Assembly (NCBI GenBank): GCA_034401135.1
Contig: JAWZSP010000002.1
Span: forward strand, 496,001-560,000
Source: Volutella citrinella
Taxonomy: Eukaryota; Ascomycota; Sordariomycetes; Hypocreales; Nectriaceae
Reading direction: 5' to 3'
DNA: 64,000 bases
Part shown: in pieces, positions 3,497 through 63,958 of the stretch
Position numbering within the stretch: the first letter of the stretch is position 1
Layout: every line of letters starts with the position of its first letter
Notes under the pieces: generated by a model
Told to the model about the DNA's origin: nothing
What the model saw: only the letters and a program-made list of their open reading frames with translations
Databases searched by the model: none
Made by a program: the position numbers and the translations under genes

Positions 3497-5140
3497 TTAG
3501 TAGACATAAACAAACTCGTCGTTCTTCGAGTCAGTAAGATCCATGAAGGCATTCTCTCCCAGGTGAGCCTGCTCTCCCTCATTTTGCGCGACGTATTCAT
3601 GCTCCATGCTAAGATCGTGAATCTTTGCAGGCTTGCCGTTCTTGACACGCTTGCGTTCCTGCATCTTGTTCAAGAAGACGAGGTTGACGAGCTGGAGCAC
3701 GATGACACCCATCAGGGCGCCGGTGATGCCCATGGTCTTGGTCAAGCCAGGCTTGTAGTGCGGGGCATCGGAACTGCTAAACAGAAGGGGACCCAGAATG
3801 TTGCCTCCAGAGACGCCGATGTTAAACAGCGAGAGAATGACAGACTTCTTGGTAGTGCCGGCGATGTTCGAGATCATCCAGGAAACGATGAGGGGGTTGC
3901 CGCCGAACAGGAAGGCAAGCATGTAGTAGGCTGCAAGAAGAGGGGGAATGCTGTCGTGGTTCAGCTTGTAGAGCATGACGGCGCCAGCGAGCACGGGGAA
4001 CATGACGGCCAGCAAGAAACCCGACTTGTTGCGGTAGCGGTGTGCAAGCCAAGAGGCGGGGAAGATGACGATGAGCTGGACAGCTCCAAAGGGAATGTTG
4101 AGCAGCGAAGTCACACCCTTGTCGAAGCCGAAGCCGCCGACGATGATGGGCCCAAAGGTGTTGACAACAGCGGCGGTCACGTTGAGGCACAAGGCCATTC
4201 CAATGAAGAGCCAAGTCTTGGGCTCGATGACAGCCTCCAGGGCCTGCTTCCACTTGAACTCGCGGCTGCCGGTACCGGTCTGGTTGGCTCGGAGGCGCTC
4301 AATGGCTTGCAGCTTCTCATGCTCGGTCAGGAACCTGGCCGAGGGGATGTCATTGTCGATGACATAGTAGACGACAGGAGCAGTCAGGACAGTCAGAAGA
4401 CCAACAAAGATGAAGAGAATACGCCACGAGGCAATGGATCCGTGGATCTGTCCAAGTCCGTACGAGACAGCAGCCGCAAACATGGTTGAGATACCATTGG
4501 TTCCGTACCAGCAGGCAACGCGCATAGGCTGCTCAGCTCGGCGATACCACTGGGACGTAATGACGGAAAATAGGGGAAGACATGCGGCCTCGAATAGACC
4601 CAGAAGGAAGCGCGTGGCGAGCAGCCCGCCGTAGCTGTTGCAAGCCGCCATGCAGGCCTGTGCAGTTCCCCAGCCGAAGACCAGCGTAGAGAGGAGGATG
4701 CGGTGAGGCACCCTGACCATGAGCCACGATGAAAAAGGCAGCCAAACGAGCTGGGCGATGGGAGCCATGGAGCCAACCATGGAGTATTGGTTGCCCTTGA
4801 GGTGGGTGTCCTCGCGGAGGCCCCAGACAGCGCCATAGCCGAGGACGGACTTGTCGAGAATTTGCAAGAAATATACCCAAACAAGAACAGATAGAATGTA
4901 TTTGTCGGTCTTGCGGCGGAGACGTTTGTTCTGCGAAGAGGAATGTTAGTCACTACATCACAATGTTGTGTAAGGGGTGCCACATACGTCCTCTTCGGTC
5001 AGTTCGATATGGGTGTCGCCAATCATCTGGGCAGCGCGATCCGCGCCATGGCTTTGCACCTCGCCATGCTTCGTCTGCGACTCGAGGTACTCGGCGTGAT
5101 CCTGAGAAGTGTCGTCCTGCATCTTTGGCGTAGTCGACAT
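3497..5140 (-). CDS. MFS permease, Dal5/anion:cation symporter-like
   Basis: A 12-helix transporter of the family that includes fungal allantoate and nicotinate permeases and bacterial sugar-acid permeases, so an organic-anion substrate is likely. Exon 1 (5140-4988) encodes a 51-residue acidic cytosolic head. A 57-bp intron (4931-4987, GTATGT...CTAAC...CGCAG) joins ...TEED to NKRLRRKTDKYILSV, and exon 2 runs to 3497, giving 528 residues. Family features include LQILDKSVLGYG in helix 1, TRFLLGLFEA in helix 4, and PLIVSWMISNIAG in the C-terminal half. A TATA-like CATAAAAGGG (minus strand, about 5250) precedes the start. It is divergent from the aldolase gene and shares a promoter region with two exact copies of the cluster element. 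I infer import of the acid degraded by the neighbouring enzymes; the substrate is not provable from sequence. Confidence 0.9.
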
Positions 5141-5506: not shown

Positions 5507-5519
5507 GTGACCCCCACGC
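5507..5519 (+). promoter_or_regulatory. Cluster element GTGACCCCCACGC, copy 1
   Basis: Exact 13-bp copy, 367 bp upstream of the permease start on the opposite strand. Its GTGGGG core (reverse complement) also fits the SYGGRG consensus of the carbon repressor CreA. Confidence 0.7.
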
Positions 5520-6040
5520 TCTCTAGTCCGGGGAACTCGAGGCGGAGAATGCGGGGAGTGCCACGAGAGCCACGGCAATGGAGTGAGGGTCTGGACGGGT
5601 TGCGGTGAGCAACCTGGAGCGAGAGGCCCCAAGATGAAAACTCGTGGCAAGGGCCATTGTCGCCCCGGTGGAGTTGAGGCTAGAGTTCGACGGCGTCGGC
5701 GCTATGTCGAGTCAGGAGCTCTGGCTGACCCGCCTCAGCTCCGCCCCAGACCGACGCTAAGTTTCCAGAATGTACAGTACTTGTGAACTTGGTTGTCATT
5801 CTGCATGACATCCATGCGACATGAAATCCTGGGGATGCGGGGACTGTTCGTGGGGGGCACCTCGTCGCGGTGTGAGACAACCGGGATGTCTGTGTGACCC
5901 CCTCGTCCGTCAGACAGGAGAACCCCCCACGCTCCCCAGAAAGTCAAGACGCAGTGCCGGGTCCAATCCATGAATAACCCTTCCCCTTGACCCAGTCAGA
6001 CGGTCGATTTGTGGGCTTCACGCAATTCACTGATGAAGGG

Positions 6041-6053
6041 GTGACCCCCACGC
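6041..6053 (+). promoter_or_regulatory. Cluster element GTGACCCCCACGC, copy 2
   Basis: Exact 13-bp copy about 355 bp upstream of the aldolase start. It extends to GGTGACCCCCACGCTC, matching copy 1 on the 3' side. Confidence 0.7.
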
Positions 6054-6406
6054 TCCTCGACACGAGCAGCTGGGTGAAGCTTCGGCCGCTTCCATGCGTC
6101 GGCCCAGGACTAGCCACCGCATTACGCTTTCGATGGAGACTCCGGAAAGTGAAGGGCCCACTCCCACTCCCATCTTCCGGAACTGGCTGTTGATCGCAGT
6201 CTCTGAGCGTGGGGGGCCCATCGGAGTCAGTTCATGTTTCCGCCACCCACACGAGCGGTTTCCTCTCTAGCCCCCTATAACTTACCACCTGTTTGACAAT
6301 CTCTAATTTGGCCCATCAACCGCTTCAGCCATTTTCTTGTATTTGCATTATTTTCTGCAAGACATCTTCGTCCTCGTTCTCGTCGTTACCAGACTTTACA
6401 AACATC

Positions 6407-7390
6407 ATGTCGCCATCAGCAACGAGCGAGCGCGTCTCTCCCAACGGCGGAAACTCCTCCCGGCCGGCCCTCCAGCAGGGCCTTTACGTCCCCACCGTCG
6501 CTTTCTTCAAGTCCGATGACTCGGTCGATGTGGAAACAACAGCAGCACATGTGAAGCGCTTGGCGGCAACTGGCATCGCCGGTATCGTCACCCACGGCTC
6601 CAACGGCGAGGCAGTCCACCTCGACCACCAGGAGAGGCAGCTCATCAACAAGACCTCTCGCGCTGCCCTTGACGCAGCCGGAAAGACCAACCTGCCCCTT
6701 ATTGTCGGATGCGGCGCTCAGTCGACTCGAGAGACCATCCAGCTCTGCCGCGAGGCGGGCGAGTCGGGCGGCAACTATGCCCTCGTCCTACCACCAGCCT
6801 ACTACGGAGGCCTCCTCTCAACAGAGCACATCATTCAACACTTCAATGCCGTGGCCGATCAGAGCCCCATCCCCATCCTCATCTACAACTTCCCCGGCGC
6901 TTGCAGCGGACTAGACCTGTCCAGCGACACCATCATTACACTGTCCAGCCACGCCAACATTGTCGGCGTCAAGCTTACCTGCGGAAACACGGGTAAGCTT
7001 GCCCGCGTGTCGGCTGCCACTTCGTCGGAGGGCGCCTCCCAGCCCTTTAGGACTTTCGGAGGCAGCGTCGACTTCACCCTGCAGACGCTCGTCGTGGGAG
7101 GAGACGGCATCATCGGTGGCACGGCCAATATCGCACCCCGAGCCTGCGTCAAGCTCTTTGAGCTCTGGGAGGCTGGGATGCTACAAGAGGCCCGCAAACT
7201 CCAGGCCGCCGTGGCAAGAGGTGATTGGGTCGCCATCCAGGGCGGCTTCGTGTCCGTCAAGGCCGGTCTGCAAGAGTATTACGGTTATGGTGGGAGGCCA
7301 CGGCTGCCGTGTGCTCTCCTCGAGGGACAGGCTGCCACGAAACAGGTGGATGGGTTTGCGGAGCTCGTCAAGCTTGAGCGAAGTCTATAA
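6407..7390 (+). CDS. DHDPS/KDG-aldolase family protein (putative 2-keto-3-deoxy-sugar-acid aldolase)
   Basis: Class I, Schiff-base-forming aldolase fold of the dihydrodipicolinate synthase superfamily, 327 residues, close to the usual size. The start at 6407 (MSPSATSERV) is the first ATG that leaves a short tail before the conserved GLYVPTVAFF strand; the open frame extends further upstream without ATG support. Visible motifs are THGSNGEAVHL (carboxylate-binding region), IYNFPGACSG (catalytic Tyr), and GVKLTCGN with the Schiff-base Lys. YNFP rather than YNVP, together with the neighbours, points to a KDG-type or hydroxy-oxoglutarate-type aldolase rather than lysine synthesis, which fungi do by another route. 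In context it would split 2-keto-3-deoxygalactonate to pyruvate and glyceraldehyde. No intron. A TATAA lies about 130 bp upstream. Confidence 0.88.
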   Translation: MSPSATSERVSPNGGNSSRPALQQGLYVPTVAFFKSDDSVDVETTAAHVKRLAATGIAGIVTHGSNGEAVHLDHQERQLINKTSRAALDAAGKTNLPLIVGCGAQSTRETIQLCREAGESGGNYALVLPPAYYGGLLSTEHIIQHFNAVADQSPIPILIYNFPGACSGLDLSSDTIITLSSHANIVGVKLTCGNTGKLARVSAATSSEGASQPFRTFGGSVDFTLQTLVVGGDGIIGGTANIAPRACVKLFELWEAGMLQEARKLQAAVARGDWVAIQGGFVSVKAGLQEYYGYGGRPRLPCALLEGQAATKQVDGFAELVKLERSL

Positions 7391-7633
7391 AAGTAAATAG
7401 ACAATGACATGTTATTCTTGAGCCATGAAACTATTGCGTTCTATCTTCGCCTGAGGGTCCTAGGGCCAATCTGGTACTTTGGCACGGTAACACGGTCCGT
7501 TGTCTGTCTTCCTGCATCATGATCACTCCACGACATGACGAGCTTCTATGGCTCGGGGGTGAACACTGAACAGTGGAAGATTGAGACTGGCTAATTGACG
7601 TCCTGTTTATCTCTATTTAAACGTAACATCTGT

Positions 7634-9567
7634 CTACAGCCACCCCTTGAGAATTGCGACCAGTCCATACGCTCCGGGATCCGGGCAGTTCTGCCATTCC
7701 TGGCCGCCGACGTAGACCGACCGACCTAGAGATGCCTTCATGCCCTTGGTACGGTCACAGCCCGTCTGCGCCGCCTCAATAGCCCGCGTAATGTCCTGGC
7801 TTGCTGCAAGCTCGGACACGAATGGGGCCAGGGCATCGATGACGGTTCTGTCGCCTGGCTGAGCCGGGGTATAGTTGCCCAGCGTCTCAAGAGCCGAAGT
7901 CAGCGCCGATGCCCATTCCGAGACGCCGATCTGCTTAGACTCCGTCAGGCTCTTGGACTGCTCGCGCAAGCTGTGTGCCAGGGCTGTCAGGAAAATGGCA
8001 TACAGGGCTCCCGATGTGCCATCCATGTTTCCTTCGATGACGGTGGCGATGGTTTGAACGAGCCGCACGGCATCGTCCTCTGGGGAAGAGCGCTGGGAAA
8101 GTGACGATAGCACCGCCTCAGCAGCAGTCTTGAGGCAGAGACCACAGTCACCATCGCCAACCAGTGTGTCATATCGGGTGACCTCAGGCTCAGCTGCGAT
8201 GACGTTCTTCAAGGCGTTCACAATAGCACTCTGTGATGTTTGCGGGTTCACTGGCTTCCGTTAGCAATGCCCCAGGTGTCATGGTCATGCTGGGGCTAGG
8301 ATAAATACCTAGTAGATGGCTCGGTTGCAGGGTTTCGCCAGCGACTGATTCTTCGACCTGGGCAGTTGAACCATCTTCTTGCTGGGCTGTGGCGCCAGCG
8401 ACGTTGATCGAGGGCAGCCATCCACTGGCTTGGACGGGAGCATCGATCAACTGCAGCCACCGTCGATCTACCAACTTCAACAAGGTGATACTGAAGCCCA
8501 GACCATTCAGGCTGGACATGTAAACGCCAGCAAGGATTCGTCGAGGCCGGATCTCGTAGCCCTTCTGCAACTGGGCCGTCACCTCGGCAGTGATGGACCC
8601 AAGCTCGAGCTGACTCAGGCCCCCAAGATTGTTGATCAGCAGCAGTGTCTCGTCCTTGGGACTGACGTTGATGAATGCTCGGTCCTCGTCTGACTGGTTG
8701 AGCAGCTGACCCAGCATGGTCTTGACAAGGCCTGCCAGGTCGGATTTGACGCGACCAAACCCTTCCTCGTTATGGATGCCCATGCCCACCTCGATATCAT
8801 CAACTGAAGCAAGGTCATGGCCAGATGCATCTCGTCCCGGAACGTGGACGTGTGCGAGTGAGGCGCCGATGGTGCCAATATTGTCGGCGACCAGACGAGC
8901 GGCGTTGTGCACCTCATCGAGATCGTATCTGGTGGTGCGTTGTCAGTATTCGTTGCAAACTGGATCGATCCGCTGAATGGGAACACCATACCCTTGCTCA
9001 GCCATGGCTCCAGCTATTTTCTGGACAAGAACAGTTCCAGCTAGACCTCTACGGCCAATCCTGCCAGACTGAACCCGTCCAATGCCAACATCGTCGCCAA
9101 CGACGAGGAGCTGACACCGAATCCCAGCACTCCTCGCCTTCTCCACGGCCATGCCAAAATGCAGCTTGTCGCCAGTATAGTTCATGATGACGACAAGGAT
9201 GCCAGACTCTGGACGGCGAGCGCCGAGCTTCACCAAGCATCTGTACACCTGTTCGGCCGAAGGCGAGGCGAAGATGGACCCAGCAACGGCCCCAGACAGG
9301 AACCCACCGCCGACGAAGCCAGCGAAGGAGGGCTCGTGGCCGGAGCCACCACCCGAGATGACGACGACATTGGGCGAGGTTTCTGCGCCCTTGAGCGTCA
9401 CTGTTTTGTATGCTTCATCGAATGCGACCGAGGGGTTGACCAGGGTAAGCGAGCGTAGCCCAGTGGTAACCAGGGCGGTGGGATCGTTGGAGAAGTGCTT
9501 GGCTGGACGCAGATGTTGGTCAAGGTGCTGCTTCAAGGAGAGGGACAATCATGTACTTACCAGACAT
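7634..9567 (-). CDS. Dihydroxyacetone kinase (DhaK-DhaL fusion, ATP-dependent)
   Basis: Phosphorylates dihydroxyacetone; fungal and yeast enzymes of this type also accept D-glyceraldehyde. Four exons were reconstructed: 9561-9567 (ATGTCTG), 8992-9502, 8309-8928 and 7634-8250, with introns of 58, 63 and 58 bp, giving 584 residues, the normal length. The tiny first exon is supported because splicing yields MSAKHFSN, the family's N-terminus. DhaK motifs: SGGGSGHEPSFAGFVG, NYTGDKLHFG, and GMGIHNEEG with the His that forms the covalent hemiaminal. DhaL motifs: LVGDGDCG (Mg/ATP) and MDGTSGALY; the usual Gly-Gly-Thr-Ser is Asp-Gly-Thr-Ser here. It is divergent from the SDR gene and shares its motif-bearing promoter. 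Likely role: phosphorylating the triose released by the aldolase. Confidence 0.95.
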
Positions 9568-10131
9568 TGTTTGACTTGCGTTCTCACGGGTTCATACCAA
9601 GTATGATACAAAAGAGAGTCCAGAATAGAGGGCGGTTTCTCAGTTTCCCTGCCCCTTCTGCATGGACCCGCGGAAACACCTGGCGGTATAAGGGCCAAGA
9701 GTCCCCAGTCAGTCTTGCTCTGCCTGGGCGCTACGCCAGCGCTTCTGGTCTGTTGAGGCCACGGCGCGGCACATCGTGAACCCCCACGCTGTCATTGAAT
9801 TCTCGCAGCTACCCCCTGTGATAGTGGATCCACAAGAGTAACACACTGCATGACCATGAGGTGCATCCCCGCAACAGCTGCCCCGCAGGTGAGGCTCTCC
9901 ACATTTTGCGCCCTCCACCATCTCGGGTCCTCAAGCGGCGTGGGGGTCACCGAACTGACTCGCAGTCGCTATTCCGCTAGGCATCGGGTCGGGCTTCTGC
10001 CGGATTAGAGTTGGAGTCAAACCGCGCGGAGTTTGCTGTTTTATTTACTCCCCGCTAGGTCTGTAGCTCTACGGCAGCACTCGACACATCTTACAATCCG
10101 TTGATCACAGACCAAGCATCTAGGAACAAAC
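9568..10131. promoter_or_regulatory. Divergent promoter, dihydroxyacetone kinase / SDR
   Basis: 564 bp between divergent starts. Contains one exact cluster element (9938) and a near-match at 9776 (GTGAACCCCCACGC, one extra A). No coding sequence. Confidence 0.65.
9938..9950 (-). promoter_or_regulatory. Cluster element, copy 3 (GCGTGGGGGTCAC on the + strand)
   Basis: Exact 13-bp copy, 194 bp upstream of the SDR start and 371 bp upstream of the dihydroxyacetone kinase start. Confidence 0.7.
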
Positions 10132-10981
10132 ATGGCATCCATTCTTCAGAATCTTTTTGGCCTGGATGGCCGCAAAGCCGTTGTGACGGGTGCGACGCGA
10201 GGCATTGGCCAAGCTATGGCCCTGTCCCTTGCCGAGGCGGGTGCCGATATTATCCTGATCCAAGTATGGTCTTCGGCTCCTATTGCCCGCAAGTGTCTCA
10301 CATCACTAACACGAGATCTAGCGAGACGAGAGCAACCTTGAGACCAAAAAGATGATCGAAGGGCTCGGGCGACAAGCTGTGGTATACACGGCAGACCTGG
10401 TCAATCAAGAGCAGGTCGAGGGCCTGACCAAGAGGATCTTGGATGACGGGCACGACGTCAGCATTCTCGTCAACTGCGCGGGCATTCAGCGCCGACATCC
10501 CGCGCACCTCTTCCCTATGAACGACTGGGACGACGTCCTCCAGGTCAACCTTCGCACAGTCTGGACGCTCTGCCGGGATCTCGGGGCGTACATGTTGACG
10601 CGACGCCCCGATCCCGTGACAAAACACCGCGGCAGCATCATCAACGTGGCCTCGCTCGTCAGCTTCCAGGGCGGCCTCACTGTTCCTGCCTATGCGGCTG
10701 CCAAGGGCGGCATCGCGCAGCTGACAAAGGCGCTGAGCAATGAGTGGGCGAGCCAGGGCGTCAATGTCAACGCCGTGGCTCCTGGATACGTTGCTACAGA
10801 CATGAACGAGGCTTTGATCAACAACCCGGAGAGGGCAGCTAGCATCTTGTCACGAATCCCGGCTGGGCGATGGGGCAATCCGGATGACTTCAAGGGTGTC
10901 ACTGTTTTCCTTGCTGGGGCGGGCAGTTTGTATGTATCTGGTGAACTAGTCACTGTAGATGGCGGCTGGATGGGTCGGTAA
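10132..10981 (+). CDS. Short-chain dehydrogenase, KduD/2-deoxy-D-gluconate 3-dehydrogenase-like
   Basis: NAD(P)-dependent classical SDR, 263 residues from two exons (10132-10263 and 10322-10981) with a 58-bp intron (GTATGG...CTAAC...CTAG). Splicing gives ADIILIQRDESNLE. Motifs: cofactor loop TGATRGIG, NCAGIQRR, catalytic Ser in NVASLVSF, YAAAKGG (Tyr and Lys), and PGYVATDMNEAL. The AGIQRR segment and Trp-Asp-x-Val spacing resemble the KduD group acting on 2-keto-3-deoxy or 5-keto sugar acids, which fits the cluster. A generic 3-oxoacyl reductase-like assignment is the alternative. It may interconvert oxo sugar acids before dehydration or cleavage; the direction cannot be read from sequence. 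Confidence 0.88.
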
Positions 10982-11635
10982 TTGCTTCAAAAGAAGGAAC
11001 CCTTGGTAGATGATCCAGAATAGGTCGGTAGTCGAGCAAATACGCTGGTTCCTTACCTAAAGATGCTGAGATTGCCCAGTACGCCAGATAGGTTGGCTAC
11101 TGCTTGTGCCTCATGGCTACACCACACGAGGAAGACTGACATCCCCACTCTTGCCGTCGTTTGTCTGTCCGGAATATGACCCACCCGAAATGACCTCGCG
11201 TGGACTGTCTCCGCTCCGTGACTGCCAGTCCAAACCGTCTTGGGTCAGCGGCGGCGGCCAAATCACTAGTTCTACACTAGGGCGGCCCGGGCTCCGCGAA
11301 CTCATCCTTCGACCACGAGACCACACCCAGCTAGACTTTCTCTCACGCGCCCGACCAAGGTGGCTAGTTCGATTACTCACTGTCGTGGGTTTCGATGAGG
11401 CCGGATGGCGGCGTGGGGGTCACTCACACGGTATGACGATTCAGAGAACCGGAGCTATCCGGCTGCACCCCGTCTCGCCAAGCCGACCAACGCGGGCAGA
11501 AGGGCCCTTGAACAGATGGATACTCGGTTCGGAACGCCATGGGGATACATAGGAGCCGTATTTCCTTGGAGCTGCACAAGCCCACTACAAGACGCAAAGT
11601 GACACCTTTCCATTTCAGCAAAAAGCACCTAAGCA
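10982..11635. promoter_or_regulatory. Promoter region of the zinc dehydrogenase gene
   Basis: 654 bp between tandem genes with no credible frame. Holds an exact cluster element at 11411. Confidence 0.55.
11411..11423 (-). promoter_or_regulatory. Cluster element, copy 4
   Basis: Exact GCGTGGGGGTCAC on the + strand, 213 bp upstream of the zinc dehydrogenase start. Confidence 0.7.
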
Positions 11636-12874
11636 ATGTCTCTGCAAACGATCAAGGCGTCCGTTCTTCATGGAGCAAAGGACTTGCGGGAGGTTCGTTT
11701 GTGGCCCTCGGCAGCTGATAGTCGCCTGCTTACCGTCCCTTGCTGACCACGACCAACAGGAGAACCGCACGATATCCCCTCCTGGCCCTGGCGAAGTCCA
11801 GGTCTCTGTGAGAGCAACCGGCATTTGTGGCTCTGACCAACACTACTACAAGCATTACGCAAATGGCGACATCAAGATCCGTGAGCCTATGTCTCTGGGC
11901 CACGAGTCGTCCGGTGTCGTCGAAGCCGTTGGCCTAGATGTTACCGACCTTGCCCCTGGTGATCGCGTTGCCTTGGAGGTGGGCATGGCCTGCGAAACTT
12001 GCAAGCTTTGCAAGGCAGGCAAGTACAATCTGTGCCCAGACATGCGATTCCGGGGTTCAGCAAAGTTCTTCCCGCACTCCCAGGGCACGCTGCAGGAGAG
12101 AATCAACCACCCAGCTCGCCTGTGTTATAAGTACGGTGTATTCTCGACTTTTATGTCCCACCCTTGTTAACGTGATAGTACAGGCTCCCTGAGAATGTCA
12201 CTGATGCCGAGGGCGCGTTGGTTGAGCCCATGAGCGTTGCCATTCATGCGGTGCGACGATCGGCCGTCAAGCCCGGTGTCAGGGCTCTTGTGCTCGGAGC
12301 TGGAGCCGTAGGCCAGCTGGTGGCTGCGATGCTGCGGGTCGAGAAGGCTGGCCACATTGCCATTGCAGACATTGAGCAGCGTAGAGTCGACTTTGCCACG
12401 GAGCACGGCTTTGCTGACAGGGGCGTGGTGATGGCTCGTAAAGCAGCCCCAAGCGACGCAGAGGGCAAACTGGCCCAAGCCAAAGAGGCGGCAGCTTTGC
12501 TGACGGATGGAGATGAGTTTGATGTTGTCTTTGAGTGCACCGGCGTGGAGGGATGCGTGCAAGCAGCCATCTACTCGACGGCACCAAGCGGGAAACTCAT
12601 GATTATTGGCATGGGCACTCCAGTCCAGACACTGCCCTTGCTGGCGGCGTCTCTACGCGAGGTGGACATTGTAGGCGTGTTCCGCTACTCGGACACTTAC
12701 CGCCACGGCATTGAGCTGTTGTCCAGGCGAGAGGAGTTTGGGCTGCCAGATATCTCGAAGCTAGTGACACACCGATTCGCTGGGTTCCAGAATGTCCCGT
12801 CGGCCTTTGCCGCCGCTGCACAGACGGTCGACGAGCAAGGAGCGCTGGTGCTCAAGGTCTTGATAGAGACGTAG
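11636..12874 (+). CDS. Zinc-dependent polyol/sorbitol dehydrogenase-type alcohol dehydrogenase
   Basis: Medium-chain dehydrogenase, 372 residues from three exons (11636-11692, 11760-12130 and 12184-12874; introns of 67 and 53 bp). Catalytic-zinc residues appear in GICGSDQHYY and GHESSG. The four-Cys structural-zinc lobe is CETCKLCKAGKYNLC. The Rossmann motif is VLGAGAVGQL, followed by ADIEQRRVDFA with the Asp typical of NAD preference. The order and the FRGSAKFFPHSQGTLQE segment match the fungal xylitol/L-arabinitol/sorbitol dehydrogenase group. It probably oxidises a polyol or reduces a ketose as a feeder of the pathway; specificity is unknown. An upstream cluster element ties it to the neighbouring genes. 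Confidence 0.92.
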
Positions 12875-13074
12875 GGATTTTACCTTGGGAAACATAGAAA
12901 TAGTTCAAGATTTGAATGCAATTCGCTACTCCCCCATCGCCTCAGACAAAAGCCCTGCCCCTAATGACTGGAAGAGGTTGAACACAGCCGAAATACACAA
13001 CTCTCCAGACAGCGGGACCCCGGATTTCCTAGCGCCAAACGCCACACACTTGAGATAAAAACAAAAGTTCGGAG

Positions 13075-13877
13075 TTAACTCGTCTTTCCAACAGGTTCGC
13101 TGACGTTCCAGCCCAGTATTGTAAGATACTCTTCCCAGTCCTTTCGCAGTCCGTTTGGAAACTCGACCACGCGAGTCATACGAATCTGGAACCTGCCAGT
13201 CTTGACGTGCCAAATCCCTTGTGTGAGACGGACAGTGTCACACGACGCAACGACAATCATCACCTAGCAGGTTAGCAAACGTTCGATAGCGGTTTTGCGG
13301 GAGGTGTGCGTACCGGATATATCGCATGGGGCTTGGCGGCGGCTGCCACGGACGCCTGGGCGGCAAAGTAGACCAGCACGGCGAGCTCGCTGGTGCAGAG
13401 GACGCCATTCTTCAGACGGGCGCATTCAGCAAGATGTACCACGGATGTACCACGGTGTGTGGCACGTCTGGATCCTGTTTATGCGTCCAGCCGATCGAGG
13501 AAGGGGTTAGGGACCGCCGGTAGCTATGGTTGATACCCCAATCCCGATGTTCTTCTTGTGAGCGGCAGAGAGGGTCGTACCCTGGGCCACTGCAGCGGTA
13601 ATCAGTGTCGGAGGGATGGCACAGGAGGACAATATAGGTACGGAGGTAACGTACTGGACAGCTCCCCATAGTGTGTGGGACTCCATGGCATTTTTCTTGC
13701 CGGCGTTGTAATCCGAAGAATGGAGATGTGGAATTGCTCACGGTAGCGTTTGTTGAGGACATCGAGGTCGAGATACGGCTGCTTGTGCTGGGGCAGGGGC
13801 ATGAAGACGTCCTTCATCAACGTCGCAGCCGGAGCGAGCTCGGGGGAGGAGAAGTAGTGAGCGAGGATGGGGGGCAT
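13075..13877 (-). CDS. Multi-exon protein of unknown family inside the sugar-acid cluster
   Basis: I do not recognise the family. The likely start is the ATG at 13877 (MPPILAHYFSSPELAP). Plausible splice pairs join ...PTHYGELS to MAQGTTLSAAHKKNIGIG (donor GTACGT near 13670, acceptor CTGCAG near 13590). A last intron at about 13262-13312 (GTACGC...CTAAC...CTAG) joins ...AAAAKPHAIYP to VMIVVASCDTVRL, ending in VGKTS at 13077. The middle exon boundary near 13450 is uncertain because the frame breaks around a short direct repeat, TGTACCACGG twice (about 13436-13456), so a damaged gene is possible. No signal peptide or membrane span is visible. It is divergent from the D-galactonate-dehydratase-like gene, and the only cluster element nearby lies between the two starts. 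Confidence 0.4.
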
Positions 13878-14663
13878 GGCAGCTGTGGTAGTGGAGCAGC
13901 TTGATCTGGAGGGTTTGTCGTCTTGGGTTTGGGGCGGCTGGGAAGTGGCTATAGGGTGAGAGGATGCCGTTTCAATCTGGCGAGCAGCATTGCATCGTGG
14001 TGGCACCGTCGGCGCATGTTTACAGGGTCGCCAGTTTGGTGGTCCGAATATGGCCGACCTATCAATTACACAACAGTCGAGCCGTGTATTTAACGTCGGG
14101 GCATGCGATTTTGTGTATTTTCCAAGGCCTGGTAGCGCTGTGTAGGGCCATCAGCGACGGTCACGATTGTTTGCTCGCTGCTGCTTGGTGTTTTTTCCGT
14201 TGCTGGGTCATCCATTGGCCCAGCACTCCCGTGGCCCGACCCCTGCATCGGATGGTCGAGCCACCAACCAACCATCGCTCACTCAACACCGACGCCGACA
14301 CATCCAGCCAGCACTCTTCCAAGACCGGGCAAAGCCCAGCGTAGACGCCCAGAAGCGGGCTAGAGCTTGGGACTCGCTAATTAGGCCCTGTATTGCGGTA
14401 TTAGCAAGCACGCGACTCCACAAACACTTCCCCGCACTAATTGCAATGGCCTCTGTGCGAGTCGGGCGTGGGGGTCACTCCCAGTGCGGTGCCACCTCGA
14501 CTTGCAGTGGGGACGATCCAGCGGAAGGTTTCGGCTGGTTTAAAAAGGGCGGCCAAGCAAGAGCTTCTGCACAAGCTAGCTGAGGGCATCCGAATTGACT
14601 TCATTCACACTTCTCCTGCTTGTTTGACTCTGCACCTCTCCCAATACCTTCCAATCCGTCATC
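13878..14663. promoter_or_regulatory. Divergent promoter region, unknown gene / galactonate dehydratase-like gene
   Basis: 786 bp with one exact cluster element (14466) and a TATA-like TTTAAAAA at about 14539 serving the + strand gene. No coding sequence found. Confidence 0.55.
14466..14478 (-). promoter_or_regulatory. Cluster element, copy 5
   Basis: Exact GCGTGGGGGTCAC on the + strand, 186 bp upstream of the galactonate dehydratase-like start and about 60 bp upstream of its TATA-like box. Confidence 0.7.
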
Positions 14664-15988
14664 ATGGCCAAGATCACTGCCGCCAAGTACTACCGGGTCA
14701 AGCCCCGGTGGCTCATGGTGAAGATTGAGGACGAGAATGGACAGCATGGATGGGGAGAGGCCACTCTTGAAGGCCATGACCTGGCTGTCGAAGGCTGCCT
14801 CGACGAGATGATTCCCCGAATTGTCGGCCAAGAAGCAAAGTAAGCTACTGCCATCCTCATTCTAGGGATTCCCGCCTACTAAAGCCGCGTTCTACAGCGA
14901 AATCGAAAACATTTGGCAACTGTTTTGGCGCCATGGTTTCTACCGTGGCGGACCTGTATTCATGTCCGCCATGTCTGGTATCGATATTGCTCTATGGGAT
15001 CTGAAGGGTGAGTCTGCCACTCAGCGCGTGTGGCAGCGTCGAATTATGGCACTGACATCATCTAGGTCGCAACCTCAAAGTACCCGTTTATGAGCTCCTT
15101 GGTGGCAGAGTCCGTAACAAGGTCCAAGTCTACTGCTGGATCGGCGGCGATCGCCCATCAGATGTCGAAGCTGCTGCGTAAGCAAGATGCTATCAGCACT
15201 ATGCACAGTGTCATATGCTAACGAGCAACAGCAAAAAGCGAATCGAACAAGGCCTTACCTGCGTCAAGATGAACGCCACGGAAGACATGAACTGGATCGA
15301 CTCTCCGTCAGTGCTTGATAGCACCATCGAACGAATCAAGCAAGTCAAGGCGCTGGGCCTCGATGTGGGACTAGACTTCCACGGCCGTCTACACAAGGGA
15401 ATGGCAAAGCAGCTGGCCAGGGCTCTTGAACCTCACAAGCCCCTCTTCATAGAGGAGCCCATTCTTTGTGAACACCCCGAGGCCATCAAAAAGCTGTCTG
15501 ACCAGACAGTGATCCCCATTGCCTTTGGTGAGCGACTCTACACCCGCTGGGACATCAAGAGGTTTCTTGAAGATGCCAGCGTGGATATTCTGCAGCCTGA
15601 TATTGCACACGCTGGCGGTATCTCAGAGACGAAGCGGATTGCCACCATGGCGGAGGCATACGACGTGGCCATTGCTCCCCACTGCCCTCTAGGCCCCGTG
15701 GCATTCGCTGCCAGCATTCAAGTTGCACTGTCATGTCCCAACTTCTCAATCCTGGAAATGAGTCTGGGGATGCACTACAACACAGAGGCCGGAGATGACA
15801 TTGATCTCCTCACATACTTGAAGGACGGCAGCGTTTTCGACATCGAGGCCGGCTACGTCAAGGCGCCCACTGGCTACGGTTTGGGCATTGAGATTGACGA
15901 GGAGATGGTGATCAAGATCTCCAGGGAGACGGTCCCCTGGCAGTGCAAGACATTCCATGGCCCAGACGGCTCCATCCGCGAGTGGTAG
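14664..15988 (+). CDS. Enolase-superfamily sugar-acid dehydratase, D-galactonate dehydratase-like
   Basis: Predicted to dehydrate D-galactonate (or a close hexonate) to 2-keto-3-deoxygalactonate. Four exons (14664-14839, 14898-15007, 15066-15177, 15232-15988) give 384 residues, the normal length. The sequence follows bacterial DgoD along its length: [39 protein letters not shown] (metal Asp and catalytic His), FIEEPIL (metal Glu), [10 protein letters not shown] (metal Glu), [11 protein letters not shown], and [10 protein letters not shown] with the second catalytic His. The paired His in GLDFHGR and APHCPLG is the hallmark of the DgoD acid-sugar dehydratases, so the reaction class is well supported. 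The exact sugar acid is inferred. It is the key enzyme of the cluster. Confidence 0.93.
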
Positions 15989-16183
15989 AGGAAAGCGTGG
16001 GGGGCACTGGATCCGGGGAAGGGGATGGGGGGGGACCTGGGGGATACGTACAAGCCGAGAACAACCGGCCACAGGACGGCCATAGCTACCAAACTAGTCC
16101 ATTCTCAAACAAACCACTTCCATCCCTGTCAAGCAAGAATTATTTCCCCATGTTGTAATCCCAACCTTCAGCTGACAGCGCCT

Positions 16184-16196
16184 GTGACCCCCACGC
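16184..16196 (+). promoter_or_regulatory. Cluster element, copy 6
   Basis: Exact GTGACCCCCACGC, 481 bp upstream of the ketopantoate-reductase-like start. Confidence 0.7.
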
Positions 16197-16484
16197 CCAC
16201 ACAAGCCGGTTCCCTCCTAAATGCATGACATGACATGACACTCTTGACCGTATGTCTGGGCGCCCTTAGACTGACGGATCAGGCATATTACCGCCAGCTG
16301 CGTCATGTTCCGTGTTCTCCGCTAGAGGATGGAGACGCCCACTTTTCCATGAGGGGAAGTCGGCGTTAACCATCCTACACGAGGATAGCCAAACTCTGCT
16401 CCGGCCCTAACTCGAGACTACTCTAGCGAGCCCCGGAGTCTCCAGGTCTGGATCCGTGCTCAAGTACCGGTACATTGTGATCGG

Positions 16485-16497
16485 GCGTGGGGGTCAC
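16485..16497 (-). promoter_or_regulatory. Cluster element, copy 7
   Basis: Exact GCGTGGGGGTCAC on the + strand, 180 bp upstream of the next start. The same ACNGTGACCCCCACGCCC context (reverse strand) recurs around copy 6. Confidence 0.7.
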
Positions 16498-16664
16498 AGT
16501 CCTCCTGCTGCGTGTTTAAAGGGTGTGGTTGACCGACTTGGGCTGGGTGGTCCAACGATTAACGAAACTACAGGGGCCACTCCTGACCTCGTGCACTCTT
16601 CCCCTTTCATTTAGTATCCGGAGATACCCGAAAGCACAAAGATTGACGCTAGACTCGAGACAAG

Positions 16665-17817
16665 ATGAGCGACCACACAGTCAATGTTCTCGTCTACGGA
16701 CTTGGAGCGTACGTCTTTGCCACGCTGTGAGTCGACAGCAGAAGTAGGTCTAACCATCCGTGTGCAGAATTGGCTCGTTCTATGCCTTTATTCTCAGCCG
16801 CAGCAAGCAGGTCCGCCTAACTGTTGTTGCGCGCTCCAACTTTGATGCCGTGGCGAAGAATGGCATCAAGATCTCGAGCCAGAACCACGGCGAGCACCAT
16901 GTGAAGCCGCACCAAGGTGAGCACACTCACATGCTTTTGGGACTTGACTTTCATGCTCTGTTGGGTTGCTAATGCCTTAATTATAGTGTTTAAAACGGTT
17001 GCCGACGCAAATGAGAAGTTCGACTTCATCATCTGCACCCACAAGGCCGTCGATCAAACCCATGCCGCCAAGCAGATCGCGCCAGGAGTTGGTGACAACA
17101 CGACAATCGTCATCATTCAGAATGGTGTTGGCAACGAAGATGCCTTCCGTGATGCCTTCCCGGCCGCAACCATCATTTCCTGCGTGGTAAGCTACCAGTC
17201 ATCTCCCTTTTGCACGACAGACCATTGACAAGTTGCTGCAGACTTGGGTTGGAGCCAACCAGCCCCAGCCCGGAATCGTCACGCACACGACATCAGAAGA
17301 CATGCAAGTGGGACTGTACCCCAACGAAGCCGGCGATCCCTCTCGAGACACGGAGCGACTTGCACAATTCGAAGGCTTGTTGACAGCCGGAAAGACTGTC
17401 TTCCAGATTGTGCCAGATATCCAGGTGCAGCGGTGGGAAAAGGTGGTCTGGAACGCTGCCTGGAACTCCTTGACCACGTTGACGCTGATGGGCACACATG
17501 AATGGCTCAGCTCGTCTGACATGGCGACGCCAATGACGAGGAAGCTGATGAAGGAGGTAATTGATGTGGCGCGGGCACGGGGAGTGCCCATCGACTACGG
17601 CCTGATAGATAGACTCCTCGAGAAGATCCTGGGGATGCCTTCGATTGGAAGCAGTATGCGAACAGATTACGAGAATGGGAAGCCAATGGAGGTGGACGTC
17701 ATCTTGGGCTACCCGGTCCGCAAGGGTCGGGAACTCGGTATCGATGTCGGCACAGCGGAAACACTGTACATTATTCTGACGGCCATCAACAAGAGGCTTT
17801 CAAGTGCTTCCAAGTAG
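16665..17817 (+). CDS. Ketopantoate reductase (ApbA/PanE) family oxidoreductase
   Basis: 322 residues from four exons (16665-16708, 16768-16916, 16987-17186, 17242-17817). The N-terminal Rossmann loop GLGAIGSFYA is split by the first intron. Family motifs follow: VRLTVVARS, the THKAVDQT segment, and IQNGVGNED. The C-terminal helical domain carries VVWNAAWNSLTTL (Lys/Asn active-site region) and the late GKPMEVDVILGYPVRKGRELGI. Members reduce 2-oxo acids with NADPH; in pantothenate synthesis the substrate is ketopantoate. Fungi carry many paralogues of unknown substrate, and this one sits in a sugar-acid cluster with two cluster elements upstream. A reductase for a 2-oxo acid intermediate is a reasonable inference; a vitamin role is less likely. 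Confidence 0.88.
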
Positions 17818-18224
17818 TCGAGAGCCATCAGATAGTTCCAATCACGAGTTGCTCTGTAACACACTGCTTACAATTGCCACAATAGCGGCCCCGTGAATGG
17901 TGCAGATCCATTACCACGTGGCCCAGGAGTCCATCTCAAGCTCAAGTCACACGAGGAAATGCCGAATAAGAACCACTAGGCCCGGGTTCAACGAACGCGG
18001 GGGCGGGGACGAGGACACACCAGATCCACCGCTGTTCTGTACTGGTTGCTCGCCTCCTCCACCCCCCACGCCGGCGGGCCCCTGGGCAAGTCTTGCGTGG
18101 GGTCGCCGAGTCAGTGACAATATATAGCATAATCCTCGCGCTTACCGCTCAGCCCTTTGCTCATCTGAATCTCAAGAATCCCTCTCATTGCATCAGGCGG
18201 TGCTCTACCGCCGAGATTCCGTCC
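17818..18224. promoter_or_regulatory. Promoter region of the Cys-rich coiled-coil gene
   Basis: 407 bp. Holds two degenerate relatives of the cluster element (18061 ACCCCCCACGC and 18095 GCGTGGGGTCGC) and a TATATA at about 18120. Confidence 0.45.
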
Positions 18225-18869
18225 ATGGAGTCGGTTTCACGTACTCGGTCGTCGCCCAAGACGGCTGAGGGTGACCAATCGCCGCAATCTCACCACATCC
18301 ACAGCTCTCCCAAAAAGACCATGGGACCACCACCGTCGCCTTCCGAGCTACCAAAAGGACAGTGTCGATATATCCTCACCGTCCCGGAACTTCGGGGCTA
18401 CCGATGCAACTGCATGGCCTTCCACCAGAACAAGACGCTACCTGGTGCCCTCTGCGACTGCGGACACTATTCCTGCTTCCATTTGCCCTCCTCGTACTCT
18501 CAATCACGCGGCAGTGACCTCGCCGCCATCTCAAAACGGGTCCAGCAGCTAGAAAACGAGAGCCACCAGGCCCAGGACAATCAGATCGCCCGCCTGATCG
18601 GCCGCATCAGCGAGTTGGAGGAAGCAGTCGAGAGGAACGAAGAAGGCGCTGCCACGGAGCTACGGGCTTCGTACCAGAACATTTCTGCTGTATGGCAGAT
18701 GGTGGAAGTTTTGGAGCAACGAGTCAAGTCTCTGGAAGCTTATTGCCAGCAGCAGCAGGATCAGATAGTCGTGACCAGGACAGAGGTCAAAGAGATATAT
18801 AACCGCCAGCTGGAATTATTGGATAGTGAAGAGATGCTGGAAGAAAGGATCAACATGTTTGAGTACTAA
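18225..18869 (+). CDS. Cys/His-rich, coiled-coil protein of unknown function
   Basis: 214 residues, no intron; the start at 18225 was chosen because the preceding frame lacks a leader and TATATA lies about 105 bp upstream. Residues 1-45 are Ser/Pro-rich. Residues about 50-90 form a compact Cys/His block, RCNCMAFHQN followed by CDCGHYSCFH, that looks able to bind zinc. From about residue 100 to the end the sequence is heptad-rich (ISKRVQQLENE, RISELEEAVE, MVEVLEQRVKSLE), indicating a long coiled coil. Similar CxC...CxCGHxxCxH blocks occur in uncharacterised fungal proteins. A dimeric zinc-binding adaptor or regulator is possible, but there is no recognised DNA-binding domain. Confidence 0.75.
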   Translation: MESVSRTRSSPKTAEGDQSPQSHHIHSSPKKTMGPPPSPSELPKGQCRYILTVPELRGYRCNCMAFHQNKTLPGALCDCGHYSCFHLPSSYSQSRGSDLAAISKRVQQLENESHQAQDNQIARLIGRISELEEAVERNEEGAATELRASYQNISAVWQMVEVLEQRVKSLEAYCQQQQDQIVVTRTEVKEIYNRQLELLDSEEMLEERINMFEY

Positions 18870-19166: not shown

Positions 19167-21742
19167 CTACTTCCAAGCCGCTGGAAGCGGGTTCTTCCAG
19201 TCTCCAGAAGCTGTGAATGCGGCGTAGGCATCCACCAGCTTCTTGGCCCGCTCCTTGGCCGCATCCTGGTATGCCTTCTCCTTGGGGTCCTTGTTCTTTC
19301 CCTTCTTGGCCTTGACTCTTGTATTGAGATGCTCATCGATGTCATTGACGTATTTTTTGAGGAAATCTATCAAGATCAGCCGTGGATACTCTTCTTCGTT
19401 TACCCGAGAGGGCTTTCTCACCCTTTTGCTTCTTGATGGCTTCGTCGGTTCTCGCGTAGACAAACTTGCGCCACTTGTTTCCCAAGTCCATCTTTTCGTA
19501 TGGGAGTACATTCCAGTTGGGGTCGTTCTGTACATTTTAGCAACACATCCACCAGAGCGAGTTGATTCACTTACCAGGCCAACCAGGTTGCCCTCAAGCT
19601 CGTCACTAAATAAGATGTGTCAGCCCAGACTTTCGCTGTTTTCATGCTTGGCGCTTACAACCAAGTTCCAATTCGCGCGGCTTGTGTAACAAACAAGCTC
19701 TCAATCTCGGGAATTCTCATCTAGCAGGTTGTAAGCATCAACTTCATGCAGCAACTCGGAGCCAGAAACTTACATATCGAACAGCGTGCATGACATCCTT
19801 GCATGCATTGATTGGCTTGTTCGCGTCAGGTTCCAGCTTCACATCACCCTTCTTGTTGCTCTTGGTATCTTTTAGATACAATACTCTCGTGCCTGAGATA
19901 TGGGCTTTCATCTCTGCGGCTAAACTGATGACACCTTTGCCAAAGAGTCTGTTCACAGTTAGCACACACGCAGGGTGAGAGTAGAAAATTGAAGCATACC
20001 TTTCCTTCTTCTTGTTGGCTGGGCCGGTGAGGAGTTGTAAGTCCTTCTTGAAGTAGTTGTTGTTTGGAATAGTCTGTGTGATGATCGAGATAGGAGTATC
20101 GGAAATCACCTTCTGGACACCGTTGTCAAGTACCGCTTTGTAGTCAATCTCGCGGTTCCCCCACCAGAATCGCATGTAGTCGCAATAGTTCCAGCTAGGT
20201 GGTTGAAATACTGGGTTGGCCACCTGGAAGGCGTTTGCAGCTGGGTTCACCTTGCTGAGGCTCTTCTCGGTACTTGGAAGCTCCTTGAGGATGAAGTCCT
20301 TCAAGAGCTGCCATTCCACAATGTGTTCCGAGGCAAAGTCTTCAGTCTCTCCCTTGTCCGGGTCGGGCATATCGACAACACCAAAATCGTAGTCATCACA
20401 TCCTGCCTTCTTAGAGCCTTGGCTGTTGCTCGCGTCCTTCTTGGGTCCATAGGCTTTGAAATCCAGCCCTTGCTTTCCATTGTTCAGCTGTTTGACCAGG
20501 TCGCTGGATCCAGGATAGTGAAATCCAGCTGCCTTCACTTGCACCCCGGTTGCTGCATCCGTGCAGAATGAGAATCCATCCTTTACACCTCGCTTGGCAA
20601 TGTTGCGCTTGTCAATGCTTTGTTCGTCCTTCTCCGAGTACGGAGGGATGGTCCATTCCAAACCCCTAGTTCGCAGGATTGCGGGCGCTCCTTCATTGCC
20701 TTCTGGTATGTCCTTCAGCCGCGAGGTGCAGTCGAATCTCTTCCTCCTGTTTCCGCGATCCTTTTGATCATCCTTGTCATCCTTGTCGTTCTTGTCGTTC
20801 TTGTCATTCTTATCATCCTTGTCGTCCTTATCATTCTTGTCGCTCTTGTCGTCTTTCTTGTCATCCTTGTCGTCCTCATCGTCCTCGTCATCGTCCTTCT
20901 TGTTGCCCCTGCTGTTGCCATCTTTCCCTGATCCAGGGGCCTTTCGGCACTTTGACTTGGCTTTTCCCCTTTGTTTGCAGCCATTGCTCTTGGAGTCGGT
21001 GTCTTTGCCGTCCATGTCTGGCTGGTCAATCAGCTTGGCGAAGGCGTCAGACATGCTCATCCCTGGCCAGTCATCGACGCCACAGAGGTCGCCGACCCAG
21101 TTGCCATACTGCGCTGCATCATATCCGTTCTCGTAGATTGTTTTAGCTCCCTTGACGAGTCCCTTTGCAGCTTCGGAGGCACTTTTGACAACCGCACCCC
21201 CAGGCACAGCCATAGTTGCAATATCAACGGCCATCATAGCAGCCTCTGTGAAGACGGCGCAGACAATGTTGTCAAGATAGGACAGTGATTCGAGGACAAA
21301 GTCGGCAATAACTTCAACAAACTCGGACTTGCACCAACACTTTGATGGGTAATAGGGCCATCCATCGTCATCCGTGTAGACGGGCGACCCTTTGTCCTCG
21401 ACATCCTTGACTTCGACAATGTTCATGTGAGACTCGCACTAGTTTTCCTGTCAGTAAGAGCATGCTTTTAGTTACAAAACTTCTGGGGAGCAGACGTACA
21501 CCATAGATGTTACTGTCCTTCTGCTTTGCGCACCAGTCCTTGCAGATTTGCTTCGACTTTTCCTCAACCACGCCACTGGGAGGATAGCCCTTGTCGCTCC
21601 GAAGATAATGGAAACATAAACCTTGCTGCTTGAAAGATGCGATTGTTTCTTTGTCATCGTTTCCCCGGGGCATCAACGCTGTCCCCGAAACGGTGGTTGC
21701 AAGATAGCCCAAAGGGGCGAGCCAACGTAGCGAGATTCTCAT
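19167..21742 (-). CDS. Large secreted protein with Asp/Lys-rich linker, function unknown
   Basis: Exon 1 begins at the ATG at 21742 with a signal peptide (MRISLRWLAPLGYLATTVSG) and a Cys-containing head. A 61-bp intron (21439-21499) leads to the main exon. A stop-free 51-bp intron (19949-19999) and four more short introns lead to the last exon, which ends ...NPLPAAWK at 19167, about 750 residues in all. The centre holds a low-complexity tract of alternating Asp and Lys/Asn. The C-terminal part has conserved-looking segments (SEHIVEWQLLKDF, CDYMRFWWGN) that remind me of regions accompanying secreted fungal class V chitinase-type proteins. No chitinase catalytic motif is present, so I do not assign an activity. 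Confidence 0.72.
20765..20890 (-). repeat. Asp/Lys-coding tandem microrepeat
   Basis: About 125 bp of imperfect tandem repeats on the + strand (CTTGTCATC / CTTGTCGTT units) encode alternating DDK and NDK runs in the linker of the secreted protein. It is a likely site of length polymorphism. Confidence 0.8.
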
Positions 21743-62134: not shown

Positions 62135-63958
62135 ATGGCCCTTAGCGCACATGGGTCACGAAAGCATCCGGACATAGCGCGACTAAACTCCACTCCTCAT
62201 TTCCCGCTCGCACAATCATCAGACCCCCAGAGTCCCTATTTTCTAGGATCCGTTTCCATCGCAAACCTCGACACTCGTCTAAAAGCTTATCGCGAATCCC
62301 ATTGGGGGCCCGGCATCATGAATCCTGCGCACTCGGAGGGGACGGATGCCACGGGGGGGCGAAATACGCGTGTGCGATCCGAAAAGAAGCGGCACACGGA
62401 CCGCGTGGCACAGCAACGGCATCGGCAACGGCAGAAGGATCACGTTGCCGAGCTGGAGACCCAGCTGCGCCTGTTGAAGGGGGGTAGCAGCGACGAGATG
62501 ACACGCCTCGTAGAAGAGAATGCTCGTCTACGTCACGAGGTACGTGAACTGAACGCTAATCTAATCTGTCAATCCCGGTAAATGCAATGCGGGCGCTGAC
62601 TCGCCCACTCCATTTAGCTGCAGCGGGCCAACGGCCTTCTGGACGATCTGACAGAGGTTCTCGGCCGAAGGAGGGGCCAGGGCTCCGGCTTGGCGGGCTC
62701 TGGCTTAGCGGACACCGGCCTCGCCCGGTCCGGAAAATGGGTCTGCCGCTCGGGGGAAGAGATGCTCACCTTGGAGGATGACAGCTCAGGAGATCAAGTC
62801 CACAGATCCGGGTCAACCAGATCTGAGCAACGGTCGGACCTCGCCACGCCACGGGTACGTCAGCCACCCATAGAAGACGAGGTTGCCGTAGGGTTCGCCG
62901 GGGACCCTTCGGCAGAGCAACGAGCAGTGCCACTGAATGCAGCTTGCTTCATACCATCGTACTCCACTCCCAGCTCCCTTGGCCTGCCAGAACAGACTGC
63001 CGATGCCACATTCCCTATCCCAGCACATGAGTTCACGCGTGGGGGGCAAACCGCTTCATCCCGCCCCGGACAGACTCATGGAGGGGCGCTCGTTTCCAGC
63101 GAAGTGCTGTTTGATCCTCTGTATGCGGGATGCAGCCAGAAATGGTTGTCGTTTTGGAACTTGCCGTCCCCCAAGCCTCATTCACCTCAGTATACTACGA
63201 CCATACACTGTATCGCTTCAAAGGTTATCCAGCCGCCATCATTGCACGATCAGCATCTCCATCGAATGGTCAGCGTGGCGCGGGCCTTTGTTTGCGATAT
63301 TGGGCCGCCGACCATTGCAGACTTCGTCTTGGATGAATCGCCGAATCCACTATCCCGCCAACTGAAGATGTACAAGGGTTACCTGAAGGGGAAGCAAAAG
63401 TTGGCCGAGTATTTTGCCGCGTATTGGATTCTCTACCTCCTCTTTCGGGTGAGTTGGTCATCCCAAGGTCATGTGCTCTTGGCACATGTGCGGACTCGTC
63501 TTCAAGCTTTTGGACATAACAGCTAATGTTGCGCTTCTCGGCTCCTCGCTGATTAGTGGCAAGCGACTCTAGATAAAACCACGTACGAAGACCTGCCATT
63601 GTGGATGCAACCAACAAAATTGCAGCGAGAGGTCGAGCACTTGGCCGTCATTGATCAGGTGGTTTGGTAAGACGCACCATGTTGACCCTTGATTGCATCG
63701 CGACTAACTCATGTTCCATAATGCAGGCCGGATCTTCGAGATGAGATCATCATGTTATCATTTATTGACCTTGAATCAGCCTTGGGCGTGTTGCGGGATA
63801 TTGGCGAGCACCTTACAATCCGCGTAGGGGAAGCGCCGGTCTCCTCCACAGGGTGCTTCCAGCGATTGCTTGGAGGCCTCTCAGACTTGGCCATGTGGAA
63901 ACTAGACCCTTTATTCTTTGAGAAATACCCGCAGTGGAATTGGACTTCAGCACGATGA
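62135..63958 (+). CDS. bZIP transcription factor with DUF3425-like C-terminus
   Basis: Four exons (62135-62539, 62618-63448, 63557-63666, 63727-63958) give 525 residues from the first ATG, or 464 from the second in-frame ATG at 62318, which may be the better start because it sits nearer the basic region. Basic region SEKKRHTDRVAQQRHRQRQK, then zipper heptads VAELETQLRLLKGG, LVEENARLRHE-LQRANGLLDDL spanning the first intron. A low-complexity middle leads to a C-terminal domain with FVLDESPNPLSRQLKMYKGY, ILYLLFR-WQATLDKTTY, LPLWMQPTKLQREVEHLAVI and DQVVWPDLRDEII, the layout of fungal DUF3425 proteins. Nuclear regulator; divergent from the hydrolase and near the sugar permease. Confidence 0.88.

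Follow-up and report, generated by a model that had tools for sequence, protein, structure and literature searches.

In the apicidin F cluster of Fusarium fujikuroi, a short box is common to the promoters of one cluster, divergent promoters included, and is enriched relative to the rest of the genome. This Api-box, TGACGTGA, has 8 bp, belongs to a secondary-metabolite cluster that encodes its own factor, Apf2, and was experimentally mutated (excerpts of PMC4109984). The L-fucose genes of Trichoderma reesei are sugar-acid catabolic genes with a pathway-specific regulator, FUR1, whose element, CCGACGG, is enriched in 42 core genes out of 319 activated by FUR1 (excerpts of PMC12370193). In the D-glucuronate pathway of Aspergillus niger, gluD and gluE are clustered sugar-acid dehydrogenase genes that share a divergent promoter (excerpts of PMC5306355). 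For D-galactonate, the route in fungi comprises a dehydratase, an aldolase (EC 4.1.2.51) termed “elusive,” and a dihydroxyacetone kinase (excerpts of PMC9781776), and a galactonate route has been built into a fungus with heterologous genes (excerpts of PMC8113861). Here, we analyze a 13-bp element, GTGACCCCCACGC, that recurs in a catabolic gene cluster of Volutella citrinella. The stretch studied, called the window, is the 64,000 bp of contig JAWZSP010000002.1 at C2:496001-560000, in a genome of 45.1 Mb and 26 contigs (C1, C2, and so on); coordinates without a contig prefix are window positions. It is probable that the consensus of the element, GTGMCCCCCACGCY, is the double-stranded site of one transcription factor predicted to co-regulate seven, perhaps eight, genes of this sugar-acid cluster.

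A scan of the whole window found the exact 13-mer seven times and nowhere else, as the initial annotation of this DNA had reported. With up to two mismatches there were 13 matches against 1.81 expected, and none of 100 shuffles reached 13, which agrees with the earlier statement that the recurrence is not due to chance. The near-matches listed in that annotation are likewise real, with some of their coordinates shifted (5920 and not 5931, 9777 and not 9776, 18059 and not 18061); the one at 18095 reads GCGTGGGGTCGC, and its G run is one base short (a missing C in terms of the core). The 9-mer core, CCCCCACGC, occurs 13 times in the window, and 12 of these occurrences fall within 5511-18071 (12.6 kb). 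From the density in the remaining genome, ∼0.11 cores are expected over the 13,084-bp cluster span, and 12 are present (Poisson P ∼4e-21); the locus was picked for its striking look, a selection effect that is small beside this value. Intergenic DNA makes up 5,599 of the 13,084 bp, yet all 12 cores are intergenic in the gene models made here, as are all seven exact copies, in line with what had been claimed for the latter. Moreover, an unbiased k-mer scan of the cluster intergenic DNA, with the window right of the cluster and ∼60 kb left of the window as background, returned pieces of the element as the top words at k = 6, 7, 8, and 9, and after masking of the element (k = 6 to 8) the best remaining word had a P of 7e-5.

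Genome-wide counts were controlled with the reversed pattern of the same word, in a search that skips simple repeats and very common words. The exact 13-mer was found nine times, seven of them in the cluster within 11 kb, and its reversed control once. With up to one mismatch there were 61 places for the element and 56 for the control; subtracting the eight cluster places leaves 53 outside it (2 exact and 51 with one mismatch) and thus no outside excess. The core occurs at 376 places and its control at 354. Outside the cluster, neither word stands clearly above its reversed pattern, whereas a 13-mer that was frequent and randomly placed across the genome had been named beforehand as the outcome that would speak against the element. 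Both outside exact copies look unrelated to the cluster: one lies beyond the 3′ end of an Erv1/Alr gene (Pfam), and the other is within an open frame next to a gene of the nephrocystin-3/NACHT type (Pfam nephrocystin-3-type domain). A dispersed regulon was considered and rejected. The one outside place with a single mismatch that was inspected, GTGCCCCCCACGC at C7:482738, is inside an open frame for a cation-ATPase C-terminal domain, and the remaining places, weighed by their total against the control only, show no excess.

The 12 sites of the cluster are as follows.

5507-5519, plus strand: exact 13-mer, 375 bp from the permease ATG
5920-5932, plus strand: core site GAACCCCCCACGC, in the permease/aldolase divergent promoter
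6041-6053, plus strand: exact 13-mer, 358 bp before the aldolase ATG
6207-6219, minus strand: core site GGGCCCCCCACGC, 196 bp before the aldolase ATG
9777-9789, plus strand: core site TGAACCCCCACGC, in the divergent promoter of the kinase and the short-chain dehydrogenase (SDR)
9938-9950, minus strand: exact 13-mer, 190 bp before the SDR ATG and 375 bp from the kinase ATG
11411-11423, minus strand: exact 13-mer, 221 bp before the zinc dehydrogenase ATG
14466-14478, minus strand: exact 13-mer, 194 bp before the dehydratase ATG
15995-16007, minus strand: one-mismatch site GTGCCCCCCACGC, directly past the dehydratase stop and 666 bp before the ketopantoate-reductase-like ATG
16184-16196, plus strand: exact 13-mer, 473 bp before the ketopantoate-reductase-like ATG
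16485-16497, minus strand: exact 13-mer, 176 bp before the ketopantoate-reductase-like ATG
18059-18071, plus strand: core site CCACCCCCCACGC, 158 bp before a small coiled-coil gene

An exact copy thus precedes all seven genes for which the initial annotation had claimed one (permease, aldolase, kinase, SDR, zinc dehydrogenase, dehydratase, and reductase), with the nearest copy ∼175 to 375 bp before the ATG. Counting divergent promoters twice, the exact 13-mer stands before seven of eight genes and the core before all eight.

Alignment of the 12 cores, in which the nine core bases are invariant by choice of sites, gave the consensus GTGMCCCCCACGCY, of 13 to 14 bp. To the left of the core, G was found at position −4 in 10 of 12 sites, T at −3 in 8, and G at −2 in 9, while position −1 is A or C throughout (8 A and 4 C); a pyrimidine follows the core directly in every site (6 T and 6 C). 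Beyond the 14-bp consensus the information is low, the flanks of the copies being unrelated, and the sites occur in both orientations relative to the genes and at varied spacings. Unrelated flanks and the use of both orientations point to a protein-binding DNA site rather than a duplicated repeat, which the flanks largely rule out. An origin from a duplicated promoter or a small mobile element, of which the copies would be remnants, would account for near-identical copies within a short span, and is hardly credible given how little information lies outside the consensus and how orientations and spacings vary. An element acting at the RNA level is also unlikely, since the sites face both ways relative to the genes. 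Together, the confinement of the 13-mer, its promoter position, its unrelated flanks, and its two orientations argue for a dedicated regulatory element of one cluster, the part of the earlier interpretation that stands. The element is real, confined to the cluster, and very probably regulatory, and a dedicated factor likely lies behind it.

The genes concerned were modeled by hand and by script and identified via Pfam, NCBIfam (six proteins), and PDB sequences (five proteins).

3497-5140, minus strand: MFS permease, with one intron (4931-4987); Pfam MFS_1, E = 2e-35
6407-7390, plus strand: DHDPS-family aldolase; Pfam DHDPS, E = 1e-41; best PDB relative 3qfe
7634-9567, minus strand: dihydroxyacetone-type kinase, with three introns; NCBIfam dak_ATP
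10132-10981, plus strand: SDR, KduD/gluconate-5-dehydrogenase-like, under the cut-offs
11636-12874, plus strand: zinc alcohol dehydrogenase, sorbitol/L-idonate-5-dehydrogenase-like, under the cut-off
14664-15988, plus strand: enolase-superfamily dehydratase of the D-galactonate dehydratase family; NF010624; PDB 3rr1
16665-17817, plus strand: ketopantoate-reductase-like protein (ApbA/PanE)
18225-18869, plus strand: orphan protein with a conserved Cys/His cluster and long helices (coiled-coil); two relatives found

The firmness of these assignments differs. The kinase passes the equivalog model for ATP-dependent glycerone kinase (TIGR02361) with 686 bits against a cut-off of 575, and the dehydratase passes the NF010624 equivalog with 514 bits against 311, on models curated on bacteria and archaea. 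The ketopantoate-reductase-like protein passes the PanE/ApbA subfamily model (222 versus 141 bits). The SDR stays below the KduD cut-off (TIGR01832; 290 versus 339 bits) and is therefore called KduD-like only, and the zinc dehydrogenase, with 198 bits against the 469 required for L-idonate 5-dehydrogenase (NF007375), is a relative only. The aldolase belongs to the DHDPS superfamily and falls below the NCBIfam cut-offs listed; its PDB relatives after 3qfe are 4-hydroxy-2-oxoglutarate aldolase and YagE. The ketopantoate-reductase-like protein has 536 relatives, and the best among the matches listed are from Fusarium (up to 81%), followed by other Nectriaceae, a pattern that suggests a position of the genome in or close to this family. 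An entry from Fusarium agapanthi (P0072) fuses dehydratase and reductase-like sequence in a single gene model, which is probably a mis-annotation of two adjacent genes; the two genes would then apparently be adjacent in that species also.

Further features were observed in the same region. A proline dehydrogenase gene (Pfam Pro_dh) lies at 100-993, between a Zn2Cys6 gene to the left and the cluster. On the minus strand between the zinc dehydrogenase and the dehydratase, 13077-13880 carries protein-like open pieces in several frames; an automatic intron search there gave no open model, and two open fragments had no Pfam match. This is possibly a decayed or broken gene, or one with several introns. 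Short tandem CATGA units occur at 16224-16240, in the dehydratase/reductase intergenic region, and a low-complexity repeat of GTC(A/G)TCCTTGTC-type units at 20740-20930, inside the open frame 19744-21426 (minus strand).

The enzymes of the cluster fit a non-phosphorylating catabolism of sugar acids. A hexonate would be taken up by the MFS permease, oxidized or reduced at C5 by the zinc dehydrogenase and the SDR, and dehydrated to a 2-keto-3-deoxy acid; aldol cleavage would then give pyruvate and glyceraldehyde, and the latter would be phosphorylated. The substrate is given as a hexonate only, because the dehydratase, aldolase, and kinase families are present and no galactose dehydrogenase or lactonase was recognized in the cluster. 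Partial paralogous sets exist elsewhere in the genome. Within 9 kb at C1:1597768-1606193, a DHDPS relative (1597768, 42%) and a reductase relative (1600323-1601360, 57 to 74% by exon) are found together with a weak enolase-superfamily relative (1605342, 24%). At C3:152348-155815, an enolase relative (152348-153381, 32 to 40%) is near a reductase relative (154860-155815, 31 to 34%), and on C6 an SDR relative (1362051-1362969, 51 to 67%) adjoins, in divergent orientation, a zinc-dehydrogenase relative (1364418-1365609, 51 to 61%). The genome-wide scan found no 13-mer with up to one mismatch in any of these sets, and for C1, the one of the three contigs covered in the positions of the 9-mer CCCCCACGC, that word was also absent from the set. 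Reductase-like and enolase-superfamily genes are therefore near each other at three places of the genome (C2, C1, and C3), and this repeated neighborhood suggests that ketopantoate-reductase-like proteins may have a role in sugar-acid catabolism.

The dedicated factor would activate the cluster in response to the sugar acid or to an intermediate, for example a 2-keto-3-deoxy acid, and its regulon would be essentially this locus. Since no C2H2 or Zn2Cys6 pattern was found in the window, it would be encoded outside the cluster. Its most likely class would be that of the C2H2 zinc-finger proteins, with GCG-TGG-GGG-TCAC on the G-rich strand as the sequence read. A C2H2 factor, named as a possibility in the initial annotation, is a plausible and reasonable guess: GTGGGG lies within the core, and GCG TGG GGG resembles a series of zinc-finger triplets. 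C2H2 genes are numerous in the genome: a search with PF00096 gave 37 matches among the 150 candidates scored (of 183). A finger scan of 36 loci showed several proteins with two fingers and Arg-rich helices (L051, L052, and L056 among them), a CreA-like one (L057), and others; among these 36 loci there was no basis for singling out one candidate.

Several points weigh against a dedicated, cluster-specific factor of this class. The six frames of the 64-kb window hold no Zn2Cys6, C2H2, or bZIP pattern, in unspliced translations that miss domains split by introns. That the G-rich strand suits a C2H2 protein follows from the recognition rules of zinc fingers, on which the class assignment leans. 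High-scoring words also exist away from the cluster: by the weight matrix, the stray core of the window at 63036 scores 14.6, and GTGGCCCCCACGCC at C2:462144, 34 kb left of the window, scores 18.0. The gene at 18225, which has a core only, carries the weakest of the 12 sites (14.8). Because this site scores about as high as the stray one and below GTGGCCCCCACGCC, the eighth gene is a weak member, while the seven-gene core is firm.

Other regulators could be responsible for the element. An annotation as CreA sites had been considered from the start, and GTGGGG, a SYGGRG hexamer, is indeed present in every core (on the reverse complement). The genome also encodes, at C1:4158521, a finger protein that we take to be CreA-like (L057), and SYGGRG hexamers remain enriched in the cluster after masking of the cores (48 versus 26.4 expected, P = 1e-4, against a background that mixes coding and noncoding DNA). 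Nevertheless, CreA alone does not explain a 13-bp specificity. CreA/Mig1 sites (SYGGRG) have six bp and occur genome-wide, whereas the enriched word here has 9 to 13 bp, with four to five further positions strongly preferred. No near-match of the cluster (up to two mismatches) replaces GTGGGG with another SYGGRG variant. Elsewhere in the genome the extended word hardly occurs, which is not the hexamer-only specificity and genome-wide spread of CreA. Five short CreA-helix-like matches were seen in the window, none of them within a zinc-finger pattern. It is thus quite unlikely that these are ordinary sites of carbon catabolite repression that share their flanks by chance; CreA may additionally act on the cluster, possibly repressing it via overlapping or separate SYGGRG sites. 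The Zn2Cys6 protein encoded ∼2 kb left of the window, near C2:494008 on the minus strand (L066), is the sole Zn2Cys6 or C2H2 pattern in ∼60 kb leftward, is confirmed by Pfam Zn_clus, and lies ∼5.5 kb from the permease stop codon. It is nonetheless an unlikely regulator. The proline dehydrogenase gene stands in between, so that the Zn2Cys6 protein may act on genes other than these; the usual recognition sequence of such proteins is a CGG triplet, and the 13-mer contains neither CGG nor CCG. CGG-N-CCG pairs, with all spacings from 0 to 12 tried, are not clearly enriched in the cluster, and the 10-kb stretch around the Zn2Cys6 gene has no motif with up to two mismatches.

The Cys/His coiled-coil protein at the cluster edge (18225-18866) could itself be the DNA-binding regulator. 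Its gene adjoins the cluster and is preceded, at 158 bp, by a core site; three aligned sequences share six invariant Cys and three invariant His, and its modeled long helices could dimerize. The protein has, however, no Pfam match, and its Cys/His part is unfolded in a shallow structure model (mean pLDDT of 64). A word-limited search of 5.8 billion proteins returned two relatives, one of them in Fusarium decemcellulare, against the 536 of the neighboring reductase-like protein, so that its occurrence is probably not tied to that of the cluster. With the weakest of the 12 sites before its gene as well, such a role is very unlikely. The boldest form of an undescribed single-locus 13-bp regulator, in which the orphan would be a new kind of DNA-binding protein and control its own promoter as well as a complete non-phosphorylating hexonate route including the missing aldolase (the fungal 2-keto-3-deoxy-galactonate aldolase), is a long shot.

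A dedicated regulator of the sugar-acid cluster therefore remains the preferred explanation. The element links seven genes, and perhaps an eighth, as one regulon predicted from sequence, and the 13-bp probe is an exact handle for catching the factor. The cluster brings together a D-galactonate-type dehydratase, a DHDPS-type aldolase, and a triose-type kinase, and the aldolase at 6407-7390 is a testable candidate for the aldolase step of the route, termed still elusive in the excerpts of PMC9781776.

A text search of the literature with the letters of the element in four forms gave, by title and among the matches listed, none on fungal promoters; the fungal titles among them concern zinc deprivation in Paracoccidioides and mycoviruses of Verticillium. 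Text searches also found no paper that joins CCCCCACGC with a fungus and a promoter, and none for C2H2 with CCCCAC.

Set against the systems described at the outset, the locus resembles each in part. Unlike the Api-box, the element has 13 to 14 bp and would serve a catabolic cluster in which no C2H2 or Zn2Cys6 pattern was found. FUR1 has far wider targets, and it was rejected as the regulator, since its element is a different sequence (excerpts of PMC12370193). In the gluD-gluE description, as far as the excerpts of PMC5306355 go, no common cis-element is seen; gluD encodes a 2-hydroxyacid dehydrogenase, and no member of that family was recognized here, so that the alcohol dehydrogenase is the only one of a similar kind. 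The dehydratase, aldolase, and kinase families of the De Ley-Doudoroff non-phosphorylating galactose route (excerpts of PMC9781776) stand side by side in the cluster, which differs in lacking a recognized galactose dehydrogenase or lactonase; the substrates here are predictions. Beyond that set, it adds the SDR, the zinc dehydrogenase, and the ketopantoate-reductase-like gene. With CreA/Mig1 sites the element shares the GTGGGG inside it, and it differs from them in its 13 to 14 bp and its single locus. The element is unusual in its length, in its sharpness, and in belonging to a cluster with no recognized regulator gene, and cluster-specific cis-elements are a known kind, of which GTGMCCCCCACGCY is a new example.

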